Source: Methanoregulaceae archaeon (GTDB taxonomy: Archaea > Halobacteriota > Methanomicrobia > Methanomicrobiales > Methanospirillaceae). Taken from it: 15,994 bases of DNA. Below are positions 382 through 12,950 of the stretch, piece after piece; position 1 is the stretch's first letter, and each line of letters starts with the position of its first letter. A program made the position numbers and the translations under genes. The DNA is taken from the NCBI GenBank assembly GCA_028679405.1, contig JAJRBP010000168.1, positions 1-15,994 on the forward strand, given 5' to 3'. The notes beneath the pieces were generated by a model, which saw only the letters and a list, made by a program, of their open reading frames with translations, ran no database searches and was not told the DNA's origin.

Positions 382-1401
382 GTGGGCCCCGCAAATCCGA
401 ACATGTCCATGATCCGGGTGCTCCTTGTCGGATGCGAACAGGTAATCCAGGGTACCGTGAAGGAGACGGGTCAGCCTCCGGAAAACATCCAGTACCTTTC
501 GGCAGGATCGGGATCGGAGGCGAAGGTGATCATCAGGAAGGATCGTCCTCACCTGGTGATATCCAGATCGGATCTCCCCGATATGAGCGGGGGGGACCTC
601 GCAGGGACGGTTCAGAAAGAGGTTCCCTGTCTCCCGTTCGTGATATTACCTGAAGGTATGCAGATTCCCTGGGAATTTCTGGAATGGCTCGGTGGAGGGT
701 CATGCCCGCCTGATGACGATTGTGGCATGGGGATGGCTTCGGCAGCCCTTCCGGTAGCGAATGCCACCCTGAACAAGGCAAACTCCCAGGTCAGGCACGC
801 CATATTAAACCACCTGACCATCCTGCTCGGCTACCTCGAGATCGCGTCCGAGATGAAAGGCCAGGAATTTCCTGCCGCATTCATGGAGAAGATAAGCCAG
901 GCCGCGTCCGCGATTCACCGGTGTGTTCTTCTTACCAGGGACTACCAGGGGATAGGGCAGGTTCCTCCCTGCTGGCACCCCCTCTCATCAGTCCTCCGGG
1001 AATCCGCCTCGTTATCAGATATCGTCCTTTCAGGACCGGTTGGTGAAACGGCAAACGTGTATGGGGATCAGATCCTCGGAAAGGCTTTCGTCCGCATTTT
1101 CTCGATGATCAGGGATTCCACCGGGGACGGGGGGCGCGCAGAATATGAGGTCGGTGAGATGTCTGGGGATATGATCGTCACGATCCGCTGCACAGATGAA
1201 CGGATCCAGTGGAACGAAGGGGCGGAGAATGTCGAACTGGCGCCGACAAACCTGAATGCCAGGTCTGTATTTCCAGCGAGGGAAATCCTTGCGATCACCG
1301 GTATCGGGGTCCAGGTGAGTGGAAAGCCAGGGACTCTTGCGATCGGTATCAGGATACCGGGAGGCATGTACCGGAAAGCGGGGTTACCCCGCATCCCCTG
1401 A
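382..1401 (+). CDS. Degenerate receiver / histidine kinase-like protein (probable pseudokinase)
   Basis: A 339-residue soluble protein in three parts. Residues about 10-105 resemble a response-regulator receiver (IRVLLVG start, SDLPDMSGGDL after strand 3). Residues about 136-190 resemble the dimerisation helix pair of methanogen histidine kinases (VRHAILNHLTILLGYLEIA, His139). Residues about 220-335 resemble a HATPase domain ending in REILAITGIGV and a PGGMYR tail. Key residues are missing. The phosphoacceptor Asp is Arg62 (codon 565-567) and the acidic pair of strand 1 is Gly-Cys-Glu. The N box reads VRIFSMIRDS without the usual Asn, the D-box DxGxG is absent, and the glycine-rich loop GLGLFL is replaced by NARSVFPA. 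It probably does not autophosphorylate by the usual route. The start used is GTG 382 after a G-run at 369-374; ATG 403 or 409 would give a more standard receiver N-terminus. Partners are unknown; the downstream receiver-PAS-DAC protein is the obvious candidate. Confidence 0.72.
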   Translation: MGPANPNMSMIRVLLVGCEQVIQGTVKETGQPPENIQYLSAGSGSEAKVIIRKDRPHLVISRSDLPDMSGGDLAGTVQKEVPCLPFVILPEGMQIPWEFLEWLGGGSCPPDDDCGMGMASAALPVANATLNKANSQVRHAILNHLTILLGYLEIASEMKGQEFPAAFMEKISQAASAIHRCVLLTRDYQGIGQVPPCWHPLSSVLRESASLSDIVLSGPVGETANVYGDQILGKAFVRIFSMIRDSTGDGGRAEYEVGEMSGDMIVTIRCTDERIQWNEGAENVELAPTNLNARSVFPAREILAITGIGVQVSGKPGTLAIGIRIPGGMYRKAGLPRIP

Positions 1402-1515: not shown

Positions 1516-3189
1516 ATGATCACAGTTCTTCTTGTCCACGACAGCACCGAACTTCTCGATGCCGCCCGATCCTACCTTGAGAAGATGGGGGAAGTCCGGG
1601 TCGATACAGTCTCCTCCACAAAGCAGGCGATGGATATCCTCAAGAACCGGAGCTATGACGTGATCGTCTCGTACTATCACCTGCCCGAGATTAACGGGAT
1701 AGAATTCCTTGCGGACCTGAACGGGATCGAATTTCTCAAGTATCTCAAGGCACAGGGAAGCACAGCCCCATTCATCCTGTATACAAGGCACCGCGACCGT
1801 CTCACCATCGAGGATCTCAACCTCGCGATAGAAGTGCCTCTGAAAGGAGGATCCGGGGCAAACATCCAGTTACCAGAACTCCGGGACGTCATCAAGCAGA
1901 CGGTGATGAGGAAGAAGGCCGAGCGCGACCTGAATGCAAGGTTCGAGATCGTCTCATCGATACTCTCGGCTACACCGCTCGCCATATGCCAGTTACGGAA
2001 CCGGACGTTCGAATGGGTGAACGGACCAATGACCGCGATTCTGGGATATGGGTCCGGCGACCTCCAGGGGAAAAATGCCATGGTTATTTTCCCCGACAAG
2101 GCAGAATATGACCGCGCCTCCCGCGAGCTCGTGGTCCGGGTGGACGATCTGGGATTCGGGTATACCGAGACGAAACTGCTTCGGAAAGACGGGGGAGTGT
2201 TCCTGTGCCGGTTAAGGGCGCGGCTCCTGGACCCTGCCGATCCCTCGAAAGGGGAGATCTGGCTCGGGGAGGATACGACACAGATACGTCAGCTTGAGGA
2301 GTCCCTCAAAGAGGCGGAGCTCAGGTACAAGGAACTCCTCCAGAGCACCGGGGCTCTCGTGATGAAGATGGACACCGACGGGGTGATCACCTTCTTCAAC
2401 AAGGCCGCACAGGCATTCTTCGGATACTCAGGGCCGGAAATCATCGGAAAGCCGGTACTCGGGTCGCTCATACCGAAGGAACCGGGAACCGATCGTGATA
2501 TGATCACCCTCGTCAATGAGCTCGGGCTGAACCATGAAGCGTCCAGCATCCGGATCAACCAGATGCAGGTCCGGACCGGGGAAAGAGTATGGATCGCGTG
2601 GACCAACAAGGCGATCCGTGATGATTCCGGGGCGGTAACCGAAATTCTCTGTATCGGGCATGATATTACCGATCATGAGAGCCGGGACCGTGTCAGGATC
2701 AGCACGGCAATGTGGCGGGAAAGAGTAATAGCCGGGACCGATGTCCGTGAGGACGTTTTCGAGTCGGTTTTCCACATAGGGTGGGAGATATCGCGCGAGG
2801 GGAGGGAGGGCCATGCCGTCGGAACGGCGTTTCTTATCGGGGACTCCCAGAACGTCCTGGCACGTTCGAAACAGCTGATCCTCAATCCCTTCGAGGGTCA
2901 CCGGAACGAGGACCGGATGATCACGAATACAGGAATAAAGGAGAATATCAAGGAGCTTGCCCAGCTCGACGGCGCATTCGTGATCCGGGGGGACGGGCTG
3001 ATCGAGGCGGCAGCCCGGTACATCACCATCGACACGAGCTCCGTCGGAATCCCGAAGGGGCTTGGGACGAGGCACTCGTCGATCGCTGGTATGACTCAGG
3101 CAACCAAGGCGATTGGTATCGTCATTTCGCAAAGCGGCGGTAAGATCTCGATCTTCCGAAACGGAAAGATCGTCCAGGAGATCTCGTGA
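1516..3189 (+). CDS. Receiver-PAS-PAS-diadenylate cyclase (c-di-AMP synthase), soluble
   Basis: A 557-residue cytosolic protein with four modules. Residues 1-130 form a receiver-like domain (MITVLLVHDS; SYYHLPEINGIEFL; FILYT; LKGG). A PAS domain spans about 141-257 and a second about 263-386, ending in IGHDITDHE. Residues about 395-557 form a DAC (DisA_N) domain. The DAC signature motifs are intact in spacing and content: LDGAFVI (Asp485-Gly486-Ala487, metal/ATP) and GLGTRHSSIAG (Arg519-His520), then AIGIVISQSGGKISIFRNGK. DAC domains condense two ATP to cyclic di-AMP, a second messenger tied to potassium and osmotic control. Archaeal DACs commonly have Arg-His followed by small residues, as here, instead of the bacterial RHR. 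The receiver lacks the phosphoacceptor: Tyr53 (codon 1672-1674) sits where Asp is expected, and the acidic pair is His8-Asp9. It also carries a 9-residue internal duplication. Control is therefore probably through PAS ligands or protein contacts. No TM segment is visible. Domain call strong; activity inferred. Confidence 0.88.
   Translation: MITVLLVHDSTELLDAARSYLEKMGEVRVDTVSSTKQAMDILKNRSYDVIVSYYHLPEINGIEFLADLNGIEFLKYLKAQGSTAPFILYTRHRDRLTIEDLNLAIEVPLKGGSGANIQLPELRDVIKQTVMRKKAERDLNARFEIVSSILSATPLAICQLRNRTFEWVNGPMTAILGYGSGDLQGKNAMVIFPDKAEYDRASRELVVRVDDLGFGYTETKLLRKDGGVFLCRLRARLLDPADPSKGEIWLGEDTTQIRQLEESLKEAELRYKELLQSTGALVMKMDTDGVITFFNKAAQAFFGYSGPEIIGKPVLGSLIPKEPGTDRDMITLVNELGLNHEASSIRINQMQVRTGERVWIAWTNKAIRDDSGAVTEILCIGHDITDHESRDRVRISTAMWRERVIAGTDVREDVFESVFHIGWEISREGREGHAVGTAFLIGDSQNVLARSKQLILNPFEGHRNEDRMITNTGIKENIKELAQLDGAFVIRGDGLIEAAARYITIDTSSVGIPKGLGTRHSSIAGMTQATKAIGIVISQSGGKISIFRNGKIVQEIS
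1693..1746 (+). repeat. In-frame 27-bp tandem duplication inside the receiver domain
   Basis: Two adjacent 27-base units (1693-1719 and 1720-1746) encode NGIEFLADL and NGIEFLKYL. NGIEFL is repeated exactly in protein while the DNA differs at synonymous third positions (gggata/gggatc, ttcctt/tttctc). The duplication is therefore not very recent and has kept its frame. It lengthens the loop/helix after strand 3 by nine residues compared with the usual receiver length. Confidence 0.85.
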
Positions 3190-3784: not shown

Positions 3785-4678
3785 TTACCCCGAAGAGGAA
3801 GCCGGTTGCCCTTCGAGGAGACAGCGGACGATGCGGTCATAAATGTGCGGATAGTAGTCATCCTCACCGCTCTCGAGCGAAGGGTTGTCGTTCACCTCGA
3901 TGACGTACGCCTCGCCATTATTTTTCTTGATATCAATCCCGTAGAGACCTCTTCCGACCGCTGCTGCCGCCTGGATGCCGAGCTGTATCACCTCCGGGGG
4001 GACCCTGTCCTCCGGGACGCTCTCGACCCCGCAGTACACGACGTGACCGTTCACTGAAGCCTGGATCTTGAAGGTAACCGAAGGAATCGTGTACTTGCAC
4101 GCATACAGGAGCGAACCATCTAGTACCCCGATCCGCCAGTCGTACATGCTCTCCACGAACTGCTGCACGACAATCCAGTCCGACATCCTGATGAAACGCC
4201 GGGCGACCTTGAGAAACTCCTGGGCGGAGTCCACTTTTTCGACCCTGAGCGAGAACGAGGTGGAAGGTTCTTTCAGGACCAGCGGGGTGCCCATCTCCCC
4301 GAAGAGCTGGTTGACCTTCTCGTGCGATATCTCGTTCCTCGAGAGAAAGGCCGTTTTAGGGATCTTCACACCGGCCGCCATCATGTGCGAATACATGTTC
4401 ACCTTGTCCGAACAGATCCTGATGGACCGGGGATCATCGATCACCGGAATCCCTGATAACTCTGCCATACGGGAAGCTACGTAGGTGATGTTCATGGGAT
4501 CTGTCCTGGCCCTTATGAAGAGGGCATCCATATCAGGGATCTTATGGATATCGACGGGAAAGATGAACTCTGCCGAGTGCCCGAGTCCTTCAGCGACATC
4601 GCGGCAGCGGATGAGTGCATTCAGCTGCTCCGCATTTGAAAGGGTTTTCCGGTCCACGAATATGCCAAGTCTGCTCAT
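3785..4678 (-). CDS. RimK-like ATP-grasp ligase (partner of RLAN protein)
   Basis: A 297-residue cytosolic ATP-grasp enzyme. The N-terminal pre-ATP-grasp region (1-90) contains ALFIRARTDP and ends at DKVNMYSHMMAAGVKIPKT, where Lys92 begins the typical RimK helix. The ATP-binding lysine region is LVLKEPSTSFSLRVEKV (Lys136), with adenine hinge VVQQFVE (171-176). The metal-binding end is YGIDIKKNNGEAYVIEVNDN (Asp249, Glu261, Asn263). ATP-grasp ligases of this type join a carboxylate, via an acyl phosphate, to an amine or thiol. The substrate cannot be read from the sequence: a peptide or protein tail, or a small metabolite, are both possible. Its ATG overlaps the stop of the upstream RLAN gene (ATGA, 4675-4678), implying translational coupling and a stable two-protein complex. 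The final Ser-rich tail is likely disordered. Confidence 0.85.
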   Translation of the reverse strand: MSRLGIFVDRKTLSNAEQLNALIRCRDVAEGLGHSAEFIFPVDIHKIPDMDALFIRARTDPMNITYVASRMAELSGIPVIDDPRSIRICSDKVNMYSHMMAAGVKIPKTAFLSRNEISHEKVNQLFGEMGTPLVLKEPSTSFSLRVEKVDSAQEFLKVARRFIRMSDWIVVQQFVESMYDWRIGVLDGSLLYACKYTIPSVTFKIQASVNGHVVYCGVESVPEDRVPPEVIQLGIQAAAAVGRGLYGIDIKKNNGEAYVIEVNDNPSLESGEDDYYPHIYDRIVRCLLEGQPASSSG

Positions 4679-5322
4679 AGAAACGCCTGGTTCTTGATAT
4701 ATGCCTGCAGGAGCGACCGTTCCCCTTCGGAGAGCCGGGTATACCGCGTCGGGGTCAGCGAAGAGAGCGAGAAGCAGCCGTTTGAGCGAATGAAAACCAT
4801 GTTTACGAGGGGAATCCCGAAAATCTCGTAGATCCTTCCTGAATACTCCTCAATTGCCTGGTCCTGTTCGAAAGTCCTTCCAAACACCGAGATGACAGAC
4901 TCGATCGATGCTCCTTCGGGGAGCCTCTGGTAACAGAACGGGTACTTCCCCTTGTTTGTGATATGTTTCACTACCTCCTTTCCCGTGTCGGGATCGGTTA
5001 CGACGAAGAACTCTGAGGAGGTGGCGAAGTAGTTCAGCCCATAGACCACTGCGGGAACCGGAATGAAGGAATGGGATATGCCCCACTCCGATACGGGAAT
5101 GCCTGCAAGTGCAGCCTTCTCAAGGCAGATGGGGATGACATAGGCATCGAGCACGGAGGCACTGGCGGGTGCGACCCGGAGTCCTGCCATCTCATGGGAC
5201 AGGATGGTATAGTAGGGCTCGGTCTTGTAGTAATAATTCTCGCTTATCACGTGGAGGGTATCCCCGCGCTTCACCTCGAAGATGGCGTCTTTGAGGATCT
5301 GGTGCTCCTTCTTTCCGTTCAA
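4675..5322 (-). CDS. RLAN-domain protein (RimK-like ATP-grasp N-terminal domain), stand-alone
   Basis: A 215-residue soluble protein. Residues 21-70 (DTLHVISENYYYKTEPYYTI, then LSHEMAGLRVAPASA) and about 145-213 (ending in the SLLQAYIKNQAFL helix) match the RLAN domain. In many bacteria this domain precedes an ATP-grasp module in one chain. The middle part (FFVVTDPDTGKEVVKHITNK, then YPFCYQRLP) is an extra segment I do not recognise. Here the domain is a separate gene coupled by ATGA to the ATP-grasp ligase. The start is TTG 5322: an in-frame stop lies three codons upstream, and a good GGGTGA ribosome site ends 6 bases before it. Likely role: substrate recognition or chaperoning for the ligase; this is inference from family architecture. 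Confidence 0.75.
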   Translation of the reverse strand: MNGKKEHQILKDAIFEVKRGDTLHVISENYYYKTEPYYTILSHEMAGLRVAPASASVLDAYVIPICLEKAALAGIPVSEWGISHSFIPVPAVVYGLNYFATSSEFFVVTDPDTGKEVVKHITNKGKYPFCYQRLPEGASIESVISVFGRTFEQDQAIEEYSGRIYEIFGIPLVNMVFIRSNGCFSLSSLTPTRYTRLSEGERSLLQAYIKNQAFL

Positions 5323-7463: not shown

Positions 7464-9656
7464 ATGCAGGAGGAGATCGGGCGCGAAAACGCAAATACCC
7501 GAAAGGCGATAGATCAGGTAATGCAGAGGACGAAGATGGGTTCAGGGCCGAATCCGGTTGCTGACTGCGGGTGTCAGAGAGATCCTGCACATTACCTCAA
7601 CCGCGAACTGTCATGGGTTGAATTTGACCGGAATGTCCTGGATGAAGCAAAGGACACGACGCACCCACTCCTCGAGAGGGTGAAGTTCCTCTCCATCTTT
7701 GCAAACAACCTCGACGAGTTTTTTATGGTCAGGGTTGCCGGGCTCAGGCGCCAGCGGGCGAAAGGTGTGCTCGAAGCACCTCCGGACGGGCTGACACCGG
7801 CCCGGCAGCTGGAAGAGATCAGGTGCACCCTCCTCCCCCTCCTCGGCGAGGAATCGGAATGCTGGCATTCGGATCTTCTCCCTGCCCTCGGGGAGGCCGG
7901 GATCCGCATCCGCCGGTACGACGGACTCGGAGAAAAGGAGAAAGAGAGGTTGCGGGAGTACTTCTCACGCGAGATATTCCCGGTTCTCACGCCGCTCGCG
8001 TTCGACAAGTCGCACCCGTTCCCGTTTATCTCGAACCTTTCCCTGAATCTCGCCATCACCGTCCGGGACCCGGAGAGCGGGAACGACCTTTTCGCCCGGC
8101 TGAAGATCCCCACACCCCTCTTCCCCAGGCTCATCCAGATCCCGGCTGATGACGTGGATGCGTGCAACCGGGATGCAGGGACAGACCTTGTGTTCATCGA
8201 GGACCTGGTCGCGTCAAACCTAGGCCTGCTTTTCCCTGGTATGGAGGTTATCGCTTCGTACCCGTTCAGGATCACGAGGGATGCAGATCTCGAGATCCAG
8301 GAAGACGATGCCTCTGACCTCCTCACGGCCATCGAGGAATCGGTCGAGATGCGGCGGATCGGCGCTCCCGTCAGGATCGAGGTGGACCAGACGATGCCGG
8401 AGGGGATCCGCGGTATGCTTGCAAGGAAGCTTTCGGTGGAGCCACGGATGTTCGACCAGGTCACTCCCCCGATCGGGAAGGCGGACCTGATGCTCCTCCA
8501 TTCTCTCGACCGGCCGGAACTGAAGGATGCACCCTTCGTGCCGACGGTGCCCGGGAGACTTGAAAACCAGTTGCGGATCTTTCCGGAGATAATGAGCCGG
8601 GACATCCTTGTCTTCCATCCGTACGACAGTTTCCAGCCGATTGTGAACTTTCTCTGGCAGGCGGCCACCGACCCGGACGTGCTCGCGATCAAGATGACGC
8701 TTTACCGTGTCGGCCAGAACTCACCGATCGTGGAAGCTCTGCTGAAGGCACGCGAGAACAATAAGGCAGTCTCGGCGCTTATAGAGCTCAAAGCCCGCTT
8801 TGACGAGGAGAACAACATCGGGTGGGCCCGTGCGCTCGAACGCGCCGGTGTACACGTGGTCTATGGTCTCCCCGGACTGAAGGTTCACGCCAAGCTTTGC
8901 ATGGTCATCAGGAAGGAGAAGAGCGGGATCGCCAGGTATGTGCACCTCGGCACAGGCAATTACAACGCGGCCACAAGCCGGGTTTACACAGATATCGGTA
9001 TATTTACCGCTAACGACCTGATCGGGCAGGACGCGGCAGACCTCTTCAATGCCCTCACCGGGTACGCCCGCATACCTGCATACAGGAAACTTCTCGTCTC
9101 TCCGGGGACGATGAGGAACGGGCTCCTCGCCAGGATAGAGCGGGAGATATCCCTGCACAGGAAGGGAGGAAACGGTGCCATCGCCTTCAAGATGAATGCG
9201 CTCCAGGACCGGGAATGTATCGATGCACTGTACCGGGCATCGCAGGCCGGGGTGAGGGTGCAGCTCCAGGTGAGGGGGATCTGCTGTCTGCGCCCGGGCA
9301 TCCCCGGAATCAGCGAGAATATCACGGTCAGTGCGATCGTAGGGCGCTTCCTGGAACATGCCCGGATCTACTGCTTCAATAACGGTGGCGATGCCGAGAT
9401 CCTTATCGGGAGCGCGGACATGATGCCGCGAAACCTCGACAGGAGGGTCGAGACGCTCATGCCGGTCCTGGACCCGGAGATCAGGAGGAGAATCGCAGAG
9501 GTCATACTCCCGGTACATCTCAAAGATACGGTGAAAGCCCGGAGGCTTCGCAGGGATGGAAAATACGAACGGGTACAGGCTGGCCAGGAGGAAAAATCCC
9601 TGAATGCCCAGGACTGGCTGGTTGAACACCGCGGGTGCTGGCATGACCCCTCGTGA
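7464..9656 (+). CDS. ppk1: Polyphosphate kinase 1
   Basis: A 730-residue PPK1, slightly longer than E. coli Ppk (688). It makes inorganic polyphosphate from ATP, reversibly, through a phosphohistidine. Domain order is complete. The N-terminal domain begins at YLNRELSWVEFDRNVLDEA (44-62), followed by NNLDEFFMVR. The head domain includes TPLAFDKSHPFPFISNLSLN. The two catalytic PLD-like domains show SALIELKARFDEENNI and GLKVHAKLCMV (His475, the expected phosphorylated His), RYVHLGTGNYN, and the second histidine in GRFLEHARIYCF (His632) with IGSADMMPRNLDRRVE. About 40 residues precede the conserved start. ATG 7464 is used, and Met20 or Met25 are alternatives, as no strong ribosome site marks the start. 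The 3' end overlaps the CHAD gene by 14 bases. Confidence 0.96.
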   Translation: MQEEIGRENANTRKAIDQVMQRTKMGSGPNPVADCGCQRDPAHYLNRELSWVEFDRNVLDEAKDTTHPLLERVKFLSIFANNLDEFFMVRVAGLRRQRAKGVLEAPPDGLTPARQLEEIRCTLLPLLGEESECWHSDLLPALGEAGIRIRRYDGLGEKEKERLREYFSREIFPVLTPLAFDKSHPFPFISNLSLNLAITVRDPESGNDLFARLKIPTPLFPRLIQIPADDVDACNRDAGTDLVFIEDLVASNLGLLFPGMEVIASYPFRITRDADLEIQEDDASDLLTAIEESVEMRRIGAPVRIEVDQTMPEGIRGMLARKLSVEPRMFDQVTPPIGKADLMLLHSLDRPELKDAPFVPTVPGRLENQLRIFPEIMSRDILVFHPYDSFQPIVNFLWQAATDPDVLAIKMTLYRVGQNSPIVEALLKARENNKAVSALIELKARFDEENNIGWARALERAGVHVVYGLPGLKVHAKLCMVIRKEKSGIARYVHLGTGNYNAATSRVYTDIGIFTANDLIGQDAADLFNALTGYARIPAYRKLLVSPGTMRNGLLARIEREISLHRKGGNGAIAFKMNALQDRECIDALYRASQAGVRVQLQVRGICCLRPGIPGISENITVSAIVGRFLEHARIYCFNNGGDAEILIGSADMMPRNLDRRVETLMPVLDPEIRRRIAEVILPVHLKDTVKARRLRRDGKYERVQAGQEEKSLNAQDWLVEHRGCWHDPS

Positions 9657-11232
9657 TCAGGACCCGGACGTCCTCACGTACTGCGAGTTCGGGTCACTGA
9701 CCCTCCGGCGGCACCTTAAGGCGCTTCGTTCAGAGGTCGCCGGCGTCTCAGTCGGGGCTGATTCAGAAGCGGTTCACCGGATGCGGGTCGCCTCCCGTAG
9801 GCTCCGGGCCTCGCTCCTCCTCTTCCCTGAATGCCTCCCCGGTCCCGCGTATGATCGCTGGAGGAGTGAAATACGGGCGATAACAAAGTCTCTGGGCGAA
9901 GCCCGCGACCTGGATGTCCAGATCGAATTCATCGACAGGTACTTGCCGGATATCGGATCCGGACCAGGAAATACTGCCGGCATCGTCCTGCTCAGGAAGC
10001 AGATCAGTCGCCGCCGGAAGAAAGCCCAGGCCAGTGTCCGGAAGGCCCTGTCGACCCTCAGGTCTGACAAGACGGTTGAAGGGATCAGGCAGGCACTCCG
10101 CAGATACCCGGTCGGCAGGGAAAAAAAAGAAGGTCCCCGCTACTCTCCCGTCCTGTACGAGAGGGCCTTCGATATTGTAGTGAAACGGCTCCTCCGGGTG
10201 CTCTCATACGAAGCCGCGGTACTCTGCCATGACTGCATCTCCGAACACCACGCGCTCCGGATCGACGTGAAGCGACTCCGGTATACCCTGGAGGCATTCG
10301 CCCCGCTCTATCCTGACGGTTTAAAGGACAGGATCGGTGCGCTGAGAGAGATCCAGGACCTTCTCGGGGAGATGCACGACTGCGATGTCTGGATCGCGAT
10401 GCTTCCCCCGTTCCTGGATTCAACCGCCGCCGGCCCGGACCACTTGGTACCTTCAGGAGAAGATCTGACGGGGAAGATTCTTCTGGACCGGCAGGAGAGG
10501 CGGGAGGCATGCTACCGTGAGTTCAGGGATGCCTGGGACAGGGAGAAGCGCCACGATTCGTGGAGTGTCCTCATCTCCTCGCTTGCGACAGGGGGTGCAA
10601 TCAGCGAACTTGATCCCCTCCCGGAGGGAGCACAGATTGGGATCGTCGGCGACCTGAAAGGAAACCCCGCCATACTCCGGGCAATCCTCAGCGACTGCCG
10701 GCATGAAGGGATCGGAGCCCTCGTTATCTCCGGAGACCTTATTGGCCGGGGTCAGAAATCCGGTGAACTGATACGGCTCTGCCGCGACGAAAAGATCCCC
10801 GTCGCGCCCGGATCCGGTGACAGGAAGGTTATTAGAAAAGCTTTTCCTGCAATTCCTGGTTCCAGGCCGGGAAAGAAGAGCAAAAGGCGCCGGGATGTGC
10901 CGTATATTCCGGATACCGACGGGATCTCCTTCCTGTGCGGACTTCCATCCGGATTCGCGTTCTCTGTCGGGAACAAAAGGATCTGGATCGACCCGGCGGT
11001 CAGCTTAGGGAGAGAGCCTCAGGGTCAGGGTGCGATGACAGAAGCCCTGATGACCGCCTTCCCTGCCGATGTGATCGTGATCGGGGGACCTGAGTTTTCC
11101 CTGTCGGAAGGGGGGAGACTGGTCGTCTCGCCAGGTCCAGCCAGGGACACTGCGGGGACCGCACGGTATACCGTGATCCGCCCGGACAGCCTCGAGGTAA
11201 TCAGGAAGGAAGTCGCCCCCGGCTCGAAATGA
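9643..11232 (+). CDS. CHAD domain protein fused to a degenerate metallophosphoesterase-like domain
   Basis: A 529-residue protein from ATG 9643, preferred because GGGTG (9633-9637) precedes it by 5 bases; an upstream in-frame ATG at 9604 lacks such a site. Residues about 10-310 form a CHAD domain, an all-helical fold that binds polyphosphate. Its two conserved basic helices are AVHRMRVASRRLRASL (43-58) and ALRIDVKRLRYTLEAF (204-219), rich in exposed Arg/Lys/His. Residues about 330-515 resemble a YfcE/MJ0936-type calcineurin-like phosphoesterase: QIGIVGDLKGN for D-x-H-G-N, VISGDLIGRG for GDLxGYG, PGSGDR for GNHD, IGGPE for GHTH. Metal ligands are replaced (Lys339 for His; Ser391-Gly392 for Asn-His; no GHTH), so catalysis is unlikely. 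The 14-base overlap with ppk1 implies coupled expression. Likely a polyphosphate-binding accessory; the C-terminal module may bind a ligand or Ppk/Ppx. CHAD call strong, pseudo-enzyme reading moderate. Confidence 0.85.
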   Translation: MTPRDQDPDVLTYCEFGSLTLRRHLKALRSEVAGVSVGADSEAVHRMRVASRRLRASLLLFPECLPGPAYDRWRSEIRAITKSLGEARDLDVQIEFIDRYLPDIGSGPGNTAGIVLLRKQISRRRKKAQASVRKALSTLRSDKTVEGIRQALRRYPVGREKKEGPRYSPVLYERAFDIVVKRLLRVLSYEAAVLCHDCISEHHALRIDVKRLRYTLEAFAPLYPDGLKDRIGALREIQDLLGEMHDCDVWIAMLPPFLDSTAAGPDHLVPSGEDLTGKILLDRQERREACYREFRDAWDREKRHDSWSVLISSLATGGAISELDPLPEGAQIGIVGDLKGNPAILRAILSDCRHEGIGALVISGDLIGRGQKSGELIRLCRDEKIPVAPGSGDRKVIRKAFPAIPGSRPGKKSKRRRDVPYIPDTDGISFLCGLPSGFAFSVGNKRIWIDPAVSLGREPQGQGAMTEALMTAFPADVIVIGGPEFSLSEGGRLVVSPGPARDTAGTARYTVIRPDSLEVIRKEVAPGSK

Positions 11233-11261
11233 TCACAAGCGGCCGGTTTTCCCTGGATTCA

Positions 11262-12950
11262 TCAGAGCAGACCTGGATCCTGCAACTCCTCAGGGTGTCC
11301 TTCTCCCGGCCGGGCTTCCTCCAGGACCACATCGACGAGAAGCGGGATTGAGAATATCTTCTCGAACGCACGCTGCTCGTACTCGACCCCCCAGACCTCG
11401 AGCTGGCAGTCTCCCCTGGCGGTGATCTCAAGGCAGGCTCCATCCTTCTTTCTCCCGGTAAACCGGGCCTGGCGAACGAGGGCTGCATGGCTCCGGTCCA
11501 GGGTCTCGGCGAGCCTGAGAAAGGTCGAGAGGATCCTGACCCGTTTCTGGGTCTCACGGTCGAGATCTTCCATCGGTCCGTACTTCCCGCCCGGCACTTT
11601 CTTCCGGTGGTGCCTTGTGATCTGGGCCATGAACTCCTGTTCGACCCGGTTGAACCCGGGCAGCCCGACGTTCCTTATTATGTAGAAGGAGTGTGCGTGG
11701 TGATTGGTGTACGCGATGAAGGACCCGATATCGTGGAGGAATGCGGCGTACTCAAGGAGCTCCCGATCCGCATCGTTCAGGGAATGGAGACCAAGATCCC
11801 GTGACGAATCGAAGAGGTCGAGCGCGAGACGGGTGACCGTGCGGGCATGGAGCTCGTTGATCCCGAACGATCGCCCGAGCTGGATAATGCTCCGTTCACG
11901 GAGTGAAAGGTCCTGCATGAGGGGAAATTCCGCGATGCGACTCAGGTAGTCCTCGAGGAGGCCGTCCTGCAGGCCCCGCTGGGTGGTCACTACCCGGTCG
12001 ATTCCAAACGACTCCATAACCGCCTCGAGGATTGCTGTCCCTGCAATGATGATATCGGCCCGGTCGGGATTTATCCCTGGAATGGTGCGTCGTTTTTCCA
12101 GCGGGACAGAACAGAGAAGGACTGCTGCCTTCCTGAGCTCTGCCCGTGAGAATGAACCTGTACCTGCCTTCCCGATACCGTTCTTCCCGACGATCTCGGC
12201 AATACTGATGATCGTCCCGGAAGACCCGATGCCGAGCCCGATCTCCTCTCCGGGAAGGTCCTGCGCTGTCCGTATCAGCACATCCTTCGCATATCCCCTG
12301 ATCTCGTCGTACCGCCTGCGGGAGACTGGTTTCTCCTGCTGGTCCGGAAAGAACCGGTTCGTCAGGCGGATCGCCCCCAGCCTGAAACTCTCCAGGTAGG
12401 AATAGGTGAACCTGTCCCCGATTGCGATCTCCGTGCTCCCGCCGCCGATGTCGATAAAGAGTGCCGTCCTGCCGTCAAGATGAATGCCCGAGGCAACCCC
12501 GAGGTAGATCAGCCTGGCCTCTTCCCGGCCCGAGATGATCCTGACATCGAGATCCGCCTCGTGGCGGAGCCGGGCGAGGAGGTCGTTGCAGTTCCCTGCC
12601 TCCCTGGTGGCGGCAGTAGCGACTGCCACGACCTCTTCCGGATGGAAGGAGCATGCGAGTGCCATCAGGCGGCGGCATACGGATACGCACCGGTCGATTG
12701 CGTCAGGGAGAAGCCGCTCCTCCTGAAAAGACCCTTCACCGAGCCTGACTACCTCTTTCTGGCGCGTGAGGACGCGGTACGAACCGTTCGGGTTGATCCG
12801 GACGACCAGGAGGCGGACAGAATTTGTGCCGATATCGAGGAACGCAACGACTCTCTCAGAGGTGAGCTGATGTGTCGTACCCCCCGGGTTGTCGAAAGAG
12901 CGGTCGATACGTCCGTCGTCCGGGCCGGTCCCGGGATCCGGCAAGCTCAT
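11262..12950 (-). CDS. ppx: Exopolyphosphatase / Ppx-GppA family with HD-type C-terminal region
   Basis: A 562-residue protein of the ASKHA fold, close to the long bacterial Ppx form. It releases Pi from polyphosphate ends; the GppA reaction (pppGpp to ppGpp) is the family alternative. Motifs: FLDIGTNSVRLLVV (37-50), VATAATREAGN (110-120), ISGREEARLIYLGV (138-151, with catalytic-type Glu143), FIDIGGGSTEIAIG (165-178) and LGIGSSGTI (239-247). The C-terminal helical region carries an HD-like centre, LLEYAAFLHDIGSF (His406-Asp407) with His417/His418/His420 and RHHRK downstream. The first 33 residues precede the conserved core and contain no alternative ATG. A TATA-like element sits about 27 bases before the ATG, so the mRNA may be leaderless. 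It is convergent with the ppk1-CHAD gene, with 29 bases between stops, and divergent from the thioredoxin gene. Confidence 0.93.
   Translation of the reverse strand: MSLPDPGTGPDDGRIDRSFDNPGGTTHQLTSERVVAFLDIGTNSVRLLVVRINPNGSYRVLTRQKEVVRLGEGSFQEERLLPDAIDRCVSVCRRLMALACSFHPEEVVAVATAATREAGNCNDLLARLRHEADLDVRIISGREEARLIYLGVASGIHLDGRTALFIDIGGGSTEIAIGDRFTYSYLESFRLGAIRLTNRFFPDQQEKPVSRRRYDEIRGYAKDVLIRTAQDLPGEEIGLGIGSSGTIISIAEIVGKNGIGKAGTGSFSRAELRKAAVLLCSVPLEKRRTIPGINPDRADIIIAGTAILEAVMESFGIDRVVTTQRGLQDGLLEDYLSRIAEFPLMQDLSLRERSIIQLGRSFGINELHARTVTRLALDLFDSSRDLGLHSLNDADRELLEYAAFLHDIGSFIAYTNHHAHSFYIIRNVGLPGFNRVEQEFMAQITRHHRKKVPGGKYGPMEDLDRETQKRVRILSTFLRLAETLDRSHAALVRQARFTGRKKDGACLEITARGDCQLEVWGVEYEQRAFEKIFSIPLLVDVVLEEARPGEGHPEELQDPGLL

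Follow-up and report, generated by a model that had tools for sequence, protein, structure and literature searches.

What controls the synthesis of c-di-AMP in a methanogen whose diadenylate cyclase (DAC) domain is joined to a receiver and two PAS domains? The question is raised by one gene in the window, the 15,994-nucleotide stretch of DNA that was analysed. The nucleotide c-di-AMP is little studied in archaea. It appears to be essential in Haloferax, as stated in the available part of Braun et al 2019 (PMC6741144). The analysis indicated, with a probability of about 75%, that the gene encodes a cytoplasmic diadenylate cyclase making c-di-AMP under the control of its N-terminal pseudo-receiver-PAS-PAS module. 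Its family couples c-di-AMP synthesis to sensor domains and provides the sole DAC found in several genomes.

The features of the gene are summarized in Table 1. The Pfam domain search of the 557-residue protein returned the DAC domain (PF02457) with 69.1 bits against a curated cut-off of 27. The receiver and PAS profiles matched as well and gave the order receiver-PAS-PAS-DAC, in accordance with the preliminary description. No HisKA or HATPase domain was matched in this protein at E values up to 0.01. The receiver fold and the DAC fold were both present in the predicted structure, the full-length monomer model having a pTM of 0.40. The chassis had been likened to that of methanogen histidine kinases, and such a kinase was found at locus L172, where a protein of 824 residues carries a receiver, three PAS stretches and HATPase_c.

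Table 1. Coordinates of the gene and of its domains and motifs in the window
Feature	Position	Strand	Basis
Pseudo-receiver-PAS-PAS-DAC gene, 557 aa	1516..3189	+	domain search
Receiver-fold domain, a pseudo-receiver, residues 1-114	1516..1857	+	
Tyr53 at the position of the phospho-acceptor Asp	1672..1674	+	receiver alignments
Insertion of about 9 residues in the beta3-alpha3 loop, residues 58-66; register ambiguous as NGIEF is repeated	1687..1713	+	
Long signalling helix, residues 115-152	1858..1971	+	full-length structure model
PAS domain 1, residues ~153-254	1972..2277	+	
PAS domain 2, residues ~270-386	2323..2673	+	
DAC domain including its N-terminal helices, residues 399-557	2710..3186	+	
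DGA motif, residues 485-487	2968..2976	+	aligned to DGA of CdaA
GTRHSS, residues 517-522, with Arg519-His520	3064..3081	+	aligned to GTRHR of CdaA
Gln539; Glu in CdaA and in the DacZ clade	3130..3132	+	alignment

The phospho-acceptor position of the receiver was analysed across the family. The column was fixed with 25 canonical receivers, which were picked by an Asp-containing motif and hence are no test of Asp conservation. Among 69 distinct full fusions the column held Tyr in 57, Phe in 3, Gly in 3, Cys in 2, Asn in 2, Leu in 1, His in 1 and Asp in none; the 60 main-family fusions, the window's included, showed Tyr (56), Phe (3) and Cys (1). The 113 close proteins of a clustered database, a set that overlaps the 69 fusion ORFs and likewise includes the window's protein, had Tyr in 112, Cys in one and again no Asp. 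Asp was also absent from the column in all 26 side-branch database proteins, a count made ambiguous by a gap in four of them and by an Asp one residue off the column in P0165 and P0208. The switch Thr and Lys positions were variable in the 60 main-family members, and the alignment placed an insertion of about 9 residues after the acceptor site of the main fusion family. The five loci L172-L176 match approximately residues 1-390 of the fusion model and have receivers with Asp, so the loss of Asp marks the cyclase family and is common to all of it. Judged by these alignments, the receiver of the fusion is a pseudo-receiver. The earlier reading of a receiver-PAS-PAS sensory chassis thus stood as to domain order, with the receiver itself being degenerate. 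The result also cautions that proteins of this kind should not be taken for two-component outputs.

As a two-component output, the cyclase would be switched by phosphate that its receiver gets from a histidine kinase, the upstream ORF 382-1401 being the partner. The retained receiver fold is consistent with this. So is the finding that 13 of the 69 loci have, close to the cyclase, a gene like ORF 382-1401 (26-31% identity, a weak similarity); one of these genes, on L045, encodes PAS and HATPase_c domains. The explanation is nevertheless hardly credible, as the acceptor Asp was missing in every one of the 69 fusions and 113 database proteins, the switch Thr and Lys positions were not conserved, and ORF 382-1401 had no Pfam kinase match and a receiver match below the cut-off (16.5 against 30.2 bits). 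Phosphorelay control is unlikely since the acceptor is absent, and it was discarded as a candidate on this ground. With a pseudo-receiver, sensing must go via PAS ligands, protein contacts or a non-phosphate input to the receiver. The signal should be carried by the PAS domains and the helices. A pseudo-receiver takes part in regulation in ShkA of Caulobacter, a bacterial kinase, where it binds c-di-GMP according to the available part of PMC7288161; a similar ligand-binding role is no more than possible for the receiver of the fusion.

Sensor-linked GGDEF diguanylate cyclases such as PleD and WspR work through a sensor dimer that governs two half active sites, which join two nucleotides. The fusion would resemble them in its working, while its catalytic fold and product are unrelated and a phospho-switch is lacking. 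By this analogy, signals borne by the PAS domains most likely change how two DAC domains meet. The predicted module order is pseudo-receiver, helix, PAS1, helix, PAS2, flexible linker and DAC. Joining two ATP into c-di-AMP would require two DAC domains to face each other, and the helix-linked PAS dimer would set how frequently they meet. This frequency would change when the PAS domains sense a ligand or a redox state, and the pseudo-receiver would serve as a dimerisation, docking or ligand-binding module and not as a phosphate switch. No His was conserved in at least 80% of the 60 members in either PAS domain, hence there is no FixL-type heme ligand, and a FixL-type heme PAS was rejected.

The cyclase may instead be active in an essentially constitutive manner, the pseudo-receiver and PAS domains being a scaffold for oligomerisation or docking only. 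The lost phosphate site, the lack of a conserved PAS His and the lack of a constant neighbour gene across the 69 loci are in agreement with such a scaffold. However, the PAS region has several positions that were invariant in the 60 members, W167, N295, C379 and D383 among them, and a PAS pair joined to signalling helices usually acts as an input module, which makes a constitutive enzyme improbable.

The conservation of the active site was then analysed. The residues D485, G486, R519 and H520 were invariant in all 60 main-family members, which together with the DAC score bears out the preliminary reading that the output domain is a DAC whose catalytic motifs are conserved. The third position of the RHR motif was Asn in 33, Ser in 21, Ala in 4 and Arg in 1 of the 59 close fusions, and Arg (17), Leu (8) or Met (3) in the 28 rows of the DacZ clade. 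Position 539 was Gln in 58 of the 59 close fusions, Glu in all 28 DacZ-clade rows and also Glu in CdaA; other fusions beyond the close set had either Gln or Glu. In CdaA, the Glu aligned with Gln539 binds metal. The non-Arg third position and Gln539 suggest that metal use or rate may differ. The fusion should be catalytically active, with its metal use perhaps altered, in view of the conserved core residues and of its being the sole DAC in nine near-complete genomes.

Loss of catalysis, the domain serving as a nucleotide-binding sensor, would fit the RHS or RHN found in place of RHR in 54 of the 59 close fusions, as well as Gln539 in place of Glu. It is very unlikely given the four invariant core residues and the nine near-complete genomes that show no other DAC even though c-di-AMP appears essential in Haloferax in the part of PMC6741144 available.

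The spread of the active-cyclase candidate was examined in 186 genomes of the order, comprising the window's own genome (73% complete) and genomes at least 80% complete. The profile search revealed receiver-PAS-PAS-DAC in 63 of the 82 genomes of the window's family. The build had been regarded as exceptional, and it turned out to be an architecture common in Methanoregulaceae, very likely class DacX. All these family counts come from the top part of the match list, where no rows are missing. Full-length matches above 860 bits were obtained in 58 family genomes, with an in-frame TAG in that of G168; the fusion was cut at contig ends in G036, G144 and G163, interrupted in G159 and divergent in G008 (600 bits). 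Of the other 19 family genomes, which had no fusion at that level, several possess a membrane DAC or a PAS-type DAC of another kind. PAS-type DACs also occurred outside the family, in at least six genomes (G048, G053, G061, G080, G124 and G125), all of which also have DacZ_A. Searching a protein database with the DAC part of the sequence yielded 654 matches; among the 120 listed, 118 combined PAS with DAC and two combined AAA+ with DAC by precomputed Pfam annotation. A single-protein search of genome contigs found no relative, and the alignment-based search found 127, of which 80 were kept and 69 (L032-L100) used to compare the neighbouring genes. The records of fusion-bearing metagenome-assembled genomes name fens and lake sediments.

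Other DAC fusions were also noted. The two AAA+ ATPase fusions (P0070 and P0071) have DAC domains 73-74% identical to that of the window. A close DAC in L110 (Methanosarcinales archaeon METP1) is fused to an MIT-like domain below the threshold (25.1 bits, cut-off 30). L003 has another close DAC, fused to TPR repeats with predicted membrane helices. The AAA+ and MIT-like fusions were left out of the DAC tree.

DacZ, consisting of DacZ_A (PF21754) and DAC, is the DAC usually present in the order's other families, and it shares the DAC family and core motifs with the fusion. The fusion differs in having no DacZ_A, in its separate DAC clade and in Gln instead of Glu at 539. PF21754 gave no match in the 557-residue protein at E values up to 0.01, nor in its own genome (73% complete). 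The NCBIfam DacZ equivalog NF041371 scored 110 bits on the protein against a cut-off of 430. As none of the 186 genomes reached this cut-off, it did not discriminate, and PF21754 was used instead. DacZ_A was found in 103 of the 186 genomes, namely one of the 82 in the family (G002) and 102 of the 104 outside it. Among the 63 fusion genomes it was found in none.

A DAC tree was built for comparison. In a set of 61 genomes, 58 had a DAC; a DAC ORF was obtained at 90 of their 91 matched places and a fragment of 66 residues at the remaining one. The tree holds 94 rows, with one short row left out and five rows added. A branch with SH-aLRT 100 and length 2.3 separated the 28 DacZ-like rows from the others, among them the window's row, in a tree made by a quick method and having several long branches. 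The view that the protein is not of DacZ architecture was thereby confirmed, both by the missing DacZ_A and by the position of its DAC row. None of the 22 fusion genomes in the tree had a row in the DacZ clade; for the rest of the 63 this absence is based on PF21754 alone, a profile that misses the DacZ-clade DACs of G004, G019, G027 and G035. These four and G002, all of the window's family, keep a DacZ-clade DAC and none of them has the fusion. With fusion genomes devoid of DacZ and DacZ-clade genomes devoid of the fusion, the two kinds were mutually exclusive across the genomes examined. DacZ with added sensors, as an origin of the fusion, was ruled out by the tree and the DacZ_A survey. From these sequence data we infer that the fused cyclases took over from DacZ in Methanoregula-like genomes.

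The fusion was the sole DAC found in 10 of the 22 fusion genomes. Nine of these are at least 90% complete (G003, G010, G018, G020, G022, G024, G026, G030 and G034), and G021 (86% complete) also showed the fusion only. In G036 (96% complete) the single DAC is the fusion split over two contigs. As regards named species, the fusion is the only DAC found in Methanoregula formicica (G026); M. palustris (G002) has a PKD-membrane-DAC and DacZ, and M. hungatei (G023) a TPR-membrane-DAC and a PAS-DAC. What archaea sense to set c-di-AMP is therefore testable in cultured M. formicica. The preliminary description had asked about a DacZ beside the fusion, and none was found in the window's own genome (73% complete). 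This genome encodes a second DAC at L002 (1486-3219, - strand) with PKD domains and two membrane helices, predicted like those of the other DAC proteins by a simple hydropathy scan, so it does not depend on the fusion alone.

Class DacX, represented by M. boonei A7I8S2 (Methanoregulaceae), is reportedly due to the 2013 review of Corrigan and Grundling. The fusion very likely belongs to this named class. G003, which we take to be M. boonei, has one DAC only, and this shares the receiver-PAS-PAS-DAC architecture. The likeness was drawn via a citing paper: the available part of Braun et al 2019 (PMC6741144) gives archaeal DAC classes DacV to DacZ, attributes them to the 2013 review and has M. boonei as the DacX representative. 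Galperin 2018 (PMC5847659) describes, in the part available, methanogen REC-PAS-PAS regulators having no obvious output domain, and its main text does not mention DisA, DAC, diadenylate or c-di-AMP. Those regulators and the L172-type kinases have the same N-terminal chassis as the fusion, which differs from them by its DAC output and degenerate receiver. What is known is the class DacX by name; the pseudo-receiver of such fusions and the replacement of DacZ were not met in the open-access literature searched, and the 2013 review and Galperin 2023, outside its scope, may describe them.

These observations permit a wider and rather doubtful proposal. A whole branch of the methanogens may have dropped the housekeeping DacZ and let a cyclase with PAS sensors govern the c-di-AMP pool on which it depends. 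The receiver of this cyclase, rebuilt by Tyr for Asp and a 9-residue loop insertion, would regulate independently of phosphate and might be a site of nucleotide feedback like the ShkA pseudo-receiver. If true, ion transport would be informed directly by c-di-AMP of an intracellular cue, for instance the redox or energy state.

As for its action, c-di-AMP would most likely tune K+ and osmolyte transport via RCK_C (TrkA_C) proteins. The window's own genome encodes a Na+/H+ exchanger (L209) and a predicted ion channel (L213), each with TrkA_N and TrkA_C, which are candidate c-di-AMP targets. TrkH and DAC occurred together in 38 among 120 listed proteins. The TrkH-fused DACs of L154 and L171 lie outside the DacZ clade, and such fusions hint at K+ control in the order; a fusion of this kind would link c-di-AMP synthesis directly to K+ transport. 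In L154 (593-2653, + strand) TrkH (PF02386, 1e-47) is fused to DAC (PF02457), and in L171 (456-2597, + strand) TrkH (PF02386, 4e-48) is fused to a DAC cut by the contig end. No description of a TrkH-DAC fusion was found in the open-access literature searched, with the same two papers as possible sources. The DHHA1 search of the window's own genome matched only alanyl-tRNA synthetase (L214) and a DHH-CID/DHHA1 protein (L215), giving no clear c-di-AMP phosphodiesterase.

The genomic neighbourhood was compared across the 69 loci. In the window, the tail of a phosphomethylpyrimidine kinase gene is followed by ORF 382-1401, the DAC gene, an ATP-grasp and RLAN pair on the opposite strand and then a polyphosphate block. 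The ATP-grasp gene recurred in at least 22 loci, RLAN in at least 20, the ThiD-like tail in at least 14 and the kinase-like ORF in at least 13, these being lower bounds as many contigs are short. Some of the loci, but not all, have a DEAD-box helicase gene upstream or an amino acid permease gene downstream. No constant neighbour was present that would tie the cyclase to a pathway. A PHROGs search gave two families of unknown function. ORF 382-1401 (+ strand) has a sub-threshold receiver match, a kinase-like H-box seen by eye and no HATPase match, and it shows weak similarity to a protein with PAS and HATPase that lies close to the cyclase in another locus. The pair at 3785-5322 (- strand) consists of RimK-like ATP-grasp and RLAN, and in some loci a GCS2-family glutamate ligase lies between the two. 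The polyphosphate block at 7464-12950 comprises PPK1, a CHAD-domain protein and a Ppx/GppA exopolyphosphatase with an HD domain; the C-terminal part of the CHAD-domain protein gave a weak match of the diadenosine-tetraphosphatase kind.
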